In this document: in pieces, positions 1-62,472 of the stretch
Layout of the letters: each line of letters opens with the position of its first letter
Numbering within the stretch: the stretch's first letter is position 1
Assembly: GCA_016210005.1 (NCBI GenBank)
Contig: JACQVA010000097.1
Coordinates: 1-64,000, forward strand
Length of the DNA: 64,000 nucleotides
DNA from: Deltaproteobacteria bacterium
GTDB lineage: Bacteria; Desulfobacterota; Binatia; HRBIN30; JACQVA1
Reading direction: 5' to 3'
The notes under the pieces: model-generated
What the model was told of the DNA's origin: nothing
Databases searched by the model: none
The model's input: the letters and a program-made list of their open reading frames with translations, nothing else
Program-made: the position numbers and the translations under genes

Positions 1-62
1 GGATCGAGCTGATCGAAGCTCAGAACCCGGACTGGCGAGACCTCTATGACGAGATCGTGTAG
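1..62 (+). CDS. GIY-YIG endonuclease-like protein, C-terminal end only (cut by window edge)
   Basis: The window opens inside a reading frame ending IELIEAQNPDWRDLYDEIV and a TAG at 60-62. This is the characteristic tail of small COG2827-type GIY-YIG domain proteins, which usually read Lys-Lys-Trp-Arg-Arg-Ala-Trp-Lys before it. The catalytic half lies outside the window, so activity cannot be judged. The last 57 bases are identical to the 3' end of the degenerate GIY-YIG copy near 62.2 kb, apart from a few bases at the extreme left. Two bases after the stop begins a 177-bp inverted-repeat element of the same family that encloses the 62-kb copy. Family assignment rests on the tail and on that second copy. 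Confidence 0.7.
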   Translation, partial: IELIEAQNPDWRDLYDEIV

Positions 63-61815: not shown

Positions 61816-61915
61816 CGCGCCGGCCCGGCGGCATGCGTTGGCGTACAAGGGCATTCATGCGGAATCCGCTTGATCCGCTCAATCCGTTATAAGCCTTCTG
61901 TCTTCTGCACTCCGG

Positions 61916-62388
61916 GTCCGCGACAAACTTGTGGGTAACGTGGTGCCGACCCTGATCCTGTTCGGTGTTATGGCCGTCATTCCCGCGAAAGCGGGAATCC
62001 AGTTTGGCGTTTGGCGCTATGGACAAGCAGTTCTGCGTTTACATCCTGGCCAGCAAACTGAACGGCGCGCTGTACATTGGGGTGACCTCACAGCGAAGCG
62101 CACGGCTGCGCAGAGCCCGCAATCGTGCGGGAGAAGCAGCTGAAGAAGTGGCGCCGCGCCTGGAAGAGCTGATCGAAGCTCAGAACCCGGACTGGCGAGA
62201 CCTCTATGACGAGATCGTGTAGCGCTGGCGGGTCGTAGCGAGCCGGTGGCGTGGATTCCCGCTTTCGCGGGAATGACAAATTGCGTCCCTTTCGCCCATG
62301 GGCCTCGGCCCCTGACAGTACACAGTACTGTCAGACTGGTGAGGATTTGCCCGGTCGGCTGCACGGTACCCACAGATGTGTCGCACAC
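61916..62388. mobile_element. 473-bp inverted-repeat element enclosing a GIY-YIG pseudogene (copy 2)
   Basis: Outer imperfect terminal inverted repeats of about 26 bp: gtccgcgacaaacttgtggg at 61916 and the inverted equivalent ending tgtgtcgcacac at 62388. A second, perfect 25-bp inverted repeat lies inside (61976-62000 and 62253-62277), each arm being the attcccgcgaaagcgggaat hairpin with flanks. The gene sits between the inner repeats. A 23-bp hairpin matching copy 1 occurs at 62312-62334. The outer regions match the 177-bp element at 65-241 in inverted orientation, which shows they are one mobile family. The 62223-62472 stretch up to mlaE holds only this element and its flank. Confidence 0.75.
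62019..62222 (+). pseudogene. Degenerate GIY-YIG endonuclease gene
   Basis: Reads MDKQFCVYILASKLNGALYI then GVTS: the intact first strands of a COG2827-type GIY-YIG domain (YVYIL, LYIG). The next expected part, with the catalytic Arg/His helix (about 30 residues), is missing. After it, the residues REKQLKKWRRAWK occur only in another frame, and the frame returns for ELIEAQNPDWRDLYDEIV. Compared with the copy at the window start, four bases (atcg) are absent just before ELIE. So an internal deletion plus a 4-bp deletion leave an open but scrambled 67-residue frame with no catalytic Arg or Glu. Confidence 0.8.
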
Positions 62389-62472
62389 CCCTTGTGGGCA
62401 GGCGACGGCGGCGGCGCGTGAACCCGCAGTCGTCCTGTGCTAGAGGCAAGGGCCGCATGCCGCGTTTGTTCC

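Follow-up and report, generated by a model that had tools for sequence, protein, structure and literature searches.

An ISKra4-type MITE that very probably carries a captured GIY-YIG nuclease cassette with CGTC-tagged REPs

The repeats that enclose a GIY-YIG gene in the DNA described here very probably represent two nested mobile systems, an outer ISKra4-type MITE and an inner GIY-YIG/CGTC-REP cassette that the MITE captured as a passenger. This DNA, referred to below as the window, is the whole analysed stretch of 64,000 nucleotides and corresponds to positions 1-64000 of contig C97 in an assembly of 5.9 Mb in 268 contigs. In the mechanism we propose, an ISKra4-family transposase would act in trans on the 29-bp TIRs and leave 9-bp target duplications. 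The MITE would have captured the cassette, a GIY-YIG gene between inverted CGTC REPs, and would have multiplied it as its passenger. The captured cassette decayed in turn through deletions (often from palindrome to palindrome) and neutral substitutions. Other bacteria have the same cassette outside any MITE, as a REP-bounded unit that some relatives possess and others lack, and there it is associated with CGTC REP populations.

The outer layer and its copies

The complete MITE copy in the window spans 61914-62390 on the plus strand (477 bp including the terminal GG/CC) and has paired outer ends. Its left TIR, at 61914-61942 on the plus strand (GGGTCCGCGACAAACTTGTGGGTAACGTG), bears a likeness to ISKra4 ends in two other genomes (G113 and G126), and its right TIR lies at 62362-62390 on the minus strand (...CGGTACCCACAGATGTGTCGCACACCC). 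The two outer arms match imperfectly over 27-29 bp, and no 9-bp target-site duplication was found at this copy. Inside the arms are two 20-bp palindromes inverse to each other, ATTCCCGCGAAAGCGGGAAT at 61979-61998 and ATTCCCGCTTTCGCGGGAAT at 62255-62274. The first forms the centre of a CGTC-tagged REP at 61975-62002 (plus strand; CGTC + ATTCCCGCGAAAGCGGGAAT + CCAG), which is of the CGTC-1/dRS3 type (PMC3733652) and whose tag faces away from the gene; the second is part of the inverse REP at 62251-62278 (minus strand; GTGG + ATTCCCGCTTTCGCGGGAAT + GACA). Between them, an Ssn/COG2827-like GIY-YIG pseudogene occupies 62019-62222 on the plus strand. Because about 110 bp of its middle are deleted, the active-site region with R, H and E is gone (tail 'SQRSARLRRARNRAG...'), and the remainder scores 21.7 bits against Pfam PF01541, just under the cut-off of 22.6. 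What remains in the window is a dead gene with an internal deletion.

At the opposite end of the window, a gene-less MITE derivative occupies 63-243 on the minus strand, in which the gene was lost between the palindromes and one fused palindrome remains. The 177-bp unit at 65-241 (copy L046) retains both outer ends, reversed in orientation, and lacks the gene; its lone palindrome, at 176-195 and not assigned to a strand, has CGTC-type tags at both sides. The same arrangement of a single palindrome between CGTC-type tags is seen in L047, L048 and L049, and it is a pattern that a palindrome-to-palindrome deletion would leave. The unit lies directly 3' of the final codons of another GIY-YIG cassette copy (1-62, plus strand, stop at 60-62), which are homologous to 62161-62222 and are cut by the contig end. 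Position 1 of the window is C97:1, so the view to the left of the unit stops there, and an assembly chimera at this point is possible.

The palindrome occurs at 198 sites in the 5.9-Mb genome. The left outer end was found at about 110 sites, a count that is approximate because the 3-mismatch pattern also picks up some right ends, and 142 sites have the right outer end, with 0 for the reversed-pattern controls; each MITE end is present in roughly 100-140 copies. About 40 of the first 50 listed palindromes lie in this element, and ten in a second REP-pair family described below. A repeat search against Rfam gave no match. There are 31 complete copies inside contigs, at differing sites and 86-484 bp in size, and they contain GIY-YIG fragments only, with no transposase gene.

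Most of the 268 contigs terminate within the element, which is therefore a main cause of the fragmented assembly. The same fact would fit a reading of the copies as chimeras formed at the contig ends of a metagenome assembly. We give that reading almost no credence, since the 31 complete copies are located within contigs, at different sites, and some of them are bordered by exact 9-bp duplications.

Such duplications were scored directly outside the 29-bp TIRs (GGGTGYGCGACAAATYTGTGGGTAACGTG; outer ends GGGTG...CACCC). They are exact in 7 of 30 copies and match at 8 or more of 9 positions in 9 of 30, compared with 2 of 870 control pairs mismatched from the flanks of different copies. The peak in duplication length is at 9 bp alone, and no other length stands out. 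Around two thirds of the complete copies are without a recognisable target duplication, which is likely explained by ectopic recombination or assembly errors. Outer and inner inverted repeats around a GIY-YIG gene, together with the gene-less sibling at 63-243, had been described in a sequence-only reading as a small mobile family. The arrangement is confirmed by the coordinates and by copy counts far above chance, and the existence of a mobile family is borne out by the number of copies, 198 palindromes included, and by the excess of 9-bp target duplications over the control. A homing endonuclease gene was also considered and is ruled out by copies at many unrelated sites, some of them with 9-bp duplications.

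A class-wide search for the TIR core GGGTGYGCGACAWATTTGTRGGT, allowing up to 3 mismatches, located it in other genomes; in two of these, G126 and G113, which belong to the same class, it lies 4-7 nt 3' of the stop codon of an ISKra4 transposase gene (7 nt in G126, 4 nt in G113; NF033572, E 5e-77). The p-MULT elements, which include the ISKra4 group, have IRs of 18-39 bp and direct repeats of 8 or 9 bp (PMC3942029). On account of the 9-bp duplications, the TIR core beside ISKra4 transposases and these published IR and direct-repeat sizes, we assign the outer layer to an ISKra4-type MITE; the match in both TIR and duplication suggests that it is mobilised by an ISKra4-family transposase. ISKra4 IS (p-MULT 4, Mutator-like DDE) and their derived MITEs share with it a TIR of about 29 bp starting with GGG and direct repeats of 9 bp, and the ISKra4 ends in related genomes have a TIR core nearly identical to that of the MITE. 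Unlike an ISKra4 IS, the MITE has no internal transposase, and a GIY-YIG gene and two REPs take its place.

An intact ISKra4 element of the source genome (C12:9810-11646) is flanked by a perfect 9-bp duplication (GGTTGCTAG); its ends (GGGCGCACGAC...) are related to those of the MITE but divergent in TIR. No ISKra4 element with a TIR identical to that of the MITE was found in the assembly, which may lack the transposase partner with the MITE's own TIR. With 2 mismatches or fewer allowed, none of 97 relatives has the MITE TIR; it was found in 0 viral contigs, and plasmids gave two weak matches. The search for an assembled transposon combining the MITE TIR with a different interior gave none; the lone non-standard end, at L256, is a mutated left end. 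Solo outer ends (L076, L089, L096, L099-L102 and L104) were considered as autonomous copies and rejected, being truncated elements; the ORF lists of L076 and L089 include no transposase.

The nuclease gene inside the MITE

The source genome has 54 matches to the GIY-YIG protein versus 0-4 in the 97 related genomes. PF01541 matches number 47, including two (L023 and L029) that are UvrC- or Cho-like and lie outside the family; copy L018 reaches 54.3 bits, above the cut-off. Substitutions among the GIY-YIG copies show an N:S of 118:38, that is 3.1 compared with a neutral expectation of 3.55, and frameshifts are present in 16 of 67 GIY-YIG segments. The GIY-YIG copies decay neutrally.

The shortest copies possess neither REP nor gene (L095, 86 bp; L090 and L098, 145 bp). 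All three have target duplications, that of L090 becoming visible when its end is shifted by one base. A derived junction is common to L090 and L098 at different sites, indicating that a REP-less form transposed. Another common junction is shared by the gene-less two-REP copies L014, L069, L063 and L058, which occupy several sites with different duplications. Transposition of copies without REPs, together with the neutral decay of the gene, makes the nuclease a passenger of the MITE in this genome.

These results bear on the proposal of the sequence-only reading that the whole unit spreads through the action of its own GIY-YIG nuclease, which would cut the palindromes and copy the unit to new sites. 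In every intact copy the gene is accompanied by the palindromes, the cassette appears to move in other genomes, and several copies have breakpoints and small duplications inside or right beside a palindrome, all of which such a nuclease would account for; yet the outer ends with their 9-bp duplications are outside the palindromes, and copies without REPs transposed while most gene copies are broken. Spread of the outer unit by the nuclease is rejected on the outer duplications, the transposed REP-less copies and the neutral decay, and we consider it improbable that the nuclease spreads the unit as a whole. Multiplication of the unit seen in the window is explained by its ISKra4-type ends. The notion of one nuclease-repeat system is accordingly divided: the pairing of the nuclease with the inner palindromes holds, whereas the outer layer is assigned to a DDE transposase that would act in trans.

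A second family of repeats, about 190-230 bp long, occurs in the same genome (L004:1400-1552, L008:1380-1620, L009:255-500, L270, L272, L273, L274 and L275). It contains two differing CGTC REPs, ATGCCCGC and ATTCCCGCCTTC, inverse to each other and with their tags outward, between conserved arms (...AGCGCGGGCTTGGCCCGCAGCCC... and ...TTTCGGCCATAGTAGTTCAG), and it looks like a REPIN-type element. In L013:1420-1566, the right palindrome runs on into the flank of this second family (GACGGAGGGAAATCT) with the switch exactly at the REP, which looks like a recombination between REPs of the two families. The left palindrome of L002, L019, L041, L058 and L085 contains a partial tandem repeat (GGCCGTCATTCCCGCGAAAG joined to GCCGTCATTCCC...) with the breakpoint within the palindrome, and L042 and L097 break a few bases beyond that point. 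The palindrome breakpoints may be the trace of hairpin cutting or slippage, or of one event inherited by descent.

Pairing of the nuclease with CGTC REPs in other bacteria

The inner palindromes are CGTC-tagged REPs, in which CGTC, stem, loop, stem and CCAG follow each other and the tag, at one end, is unpaired. CGTC REPs, of which CGTC-1 is the dRS3 of Neisseria, 'apparently lack a dedicated transposase' (Di Nocera et al. 2013, PMC3733652). The REPs described here share with CGTC-1/dRS3 (PMC3733652) the CGTC tag, the stem ATTCCCGC, a short loop, an arrangement in inverted pairs and an abundance of up to hundreds per genome, and 30 bp are identical to N. gonorrhoeae copies. They differ in that most copies in the source genome were multiplied within a MITE, and in that we propose a gene for a dedicated enzyme.

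The homologues of the nuclease that were examined are the best 80 found by a pattern scan and not a random sample. They come from many phyla at 58-71% identity, and the catalytic residues Y, Y, R, H, E and N are at least 95% conserved among these best 80 aligned sequences. For the nuclease, NCBIfam had no model above its cut-off and solved structures offered no useful relative. L153 and L229, two of the loci studied, represent one contig sequence, and one of the same-class genomes is a groundwater deltaproteobacterial MAG.

Palindromes of the ATTCC...GGAAT form lie within 300 bp of 60 of the best 80 homologues, and the tested palindrome forms are missing near the other 20. Under the strict CGTC definition, REPs are present at 49 of the best 80 loci. 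The density of CGTC REPs over the 80 loci is 118 per 46 kb near the gene versus 11 per 142 kb far from it, a 33-fold enrichment (p ~1e-58), and the closest upstream REP has its tag directed outward by 31:6. At ten other GIY-YIG genes, UvrC and Cho-like ones among them, no CGTC REPs were found (0/10). The stem varies by lineage (ATTCCGGC, ACCCCGGC, ATTCTCGGG and ACACCGGC) and the CGTC tag is constant. At the level of genomes, at least 20 CGTC REPs occur in 7 of the 8 with a close homologue versus 6 of 89 others, with p = 1e-6 uncorrected for shared ancestry. Some genomes combine one gene with hundreds of REPs (458 in G067).

Could an ordinary repair or house-keeping nuclease simply lie near REPs because REPs are abundant, palindromes and GIY-YIG being unrelated? 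Some of these genomes do contain hundreds of REPs, but the 33-fold enrichment is measured over DNA of the same loci, outward orientation is conserved, REPs are missing from other GIY-YIG genes, and the tag is kept while the stem changes with lineage. We regard a chance neighbourhood as very improbable. The tie between GIY-YIG genes and palindromes, already suspected from the window, is upheld by this near-versus-far comparison and extends across phyla. The GIY-YIG family is the best candidate partner of CGTC REPs.

In one genus of the same class, G067, G092 and G107 have 314-477 CGTC REPs by the strict pattern, and G067 and G092 each have a single GIY-YIG homologue. Remoter homologues of about 50% identity in G022 and G071 (L235 and L236) are flanked by CGTC REPs with stem ATTCTCGGG, so the association with REPs may reach far outside the close subfamily. 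The cassette at L286:540-930 (Rhizobium sp. CIAT894 plasmid pRheCIAT894e) is very regular in its order of CTCCGTC-hairpin, GIY-YIG gene and hairpin-GACGGAG; it has extended inverted repeats at both ends, and an IS4-family transposase is near. Two records labelled N. gonorrhoeae plasmids, NZ_CP119140.1 and NZ_CP119142.1, are of chromosome size (2.17 Mb) and were probably mislabelled in the source collection.

The arrangement resembles the RAYT/REPtron system (TnpA-REP with GTAG REPs) in that inverted REPs flank the enzyme gene and one gene is matched by many dispersed REPs in trans. Identity with that system is ruled out, because the enzyme here is a GIY-YIG protein and not an HUH tyrosine transposase, and the tag is CGTC and not GTAG.

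Mobility of the inner cassette

Presence and absence of the inner unit were observed in two groups. A unit composed of REP pair, GIY-YIG gene and REP pair, about 550 bp in all, separates sufB from sufC in Azospirillum lipoferum 4B, while in five other Azospirillum the two genes are close together without it. At one Shinella locus, three plasmid records contain a GIY-YIG block bounded by REPs, and four lack it at the same place. Because of these presence/absence patterns, the inner cassette appears mobile by itself. The outer edges of the unit are near the outermost REPs (about 20 bp in Azospirillum). Divergence of the intergenic DNA makes the precise ends and any target duplications unreadable; the edges are resolved to about 20 bp, and the nuclease is a candidate for the mover of these units.

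The nuclease family described here is presumably Ssn-related. Its nearest relative with a tested activity, Ssn of N. meningitidis, is reported to be a site-specific single-strand nuclease that acts on a repeat with hundreds of copies and modulates transformation. Ssn is likewise a short GIY-YIG protein of about 95 aa, of the same protein family by sequence, with a genome-wide repeat association. In contrast to Ssn, the nuclease here occurs in many, mostly broken copies within a transposon. N. gonorrhoeae has one GIY-YIG homologue, at 59% identity, among CGTC REPs on both sides. A literature search found no paper on GIY-YIG together with REPINs or dRS3.

Two accounts of the cassette outside the MITE were weighed. 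In the first, the Ssn-type GIY-YIG protein would serve CGTC REPs as their dedicated enzyme: it would form a self-mobile REPtron, the dispersed REPs would be non-autonomous, and in the source genome the system would have been hijacked by an ISKra4 MITE. The enzyme would cut the palindromes in single-stranded DNA, and REPs and cassette would move or shuffle as a result. We put this forward tentatively, at somewhat less than an even chance. In the second, the cassette is moved by slippage, REP recombination or passing transposases, and the enzyme uses the REPs otherwise, for example in limiting DNA uptake. This fits the effect on transformation reported for Ssn in Neisseria and the gonococcal homologue within clusters of CGTC REPs, and we rate it at close to even chances; against it, the gain at the sufB-sufC junction by a single Azospirillum species, the block in only some Shinella and the spread of proteins of 58-71% identity over many phyla all argue that the unit travels, although they leave the mover unspecified.

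The window is a rare case in which one mobile system, an ISKra4 MITE, captures and amplifies another. The oriented and specific link between gene and REPs, their co-occurrence among genomes and the two presence/absence cases make the GIY-YIG family a concrete, testable candidate for the enzyme of CGTC REPs. If this is true, a single-strand nuclease would take the role that RAYTs hold for GTAG REPs.
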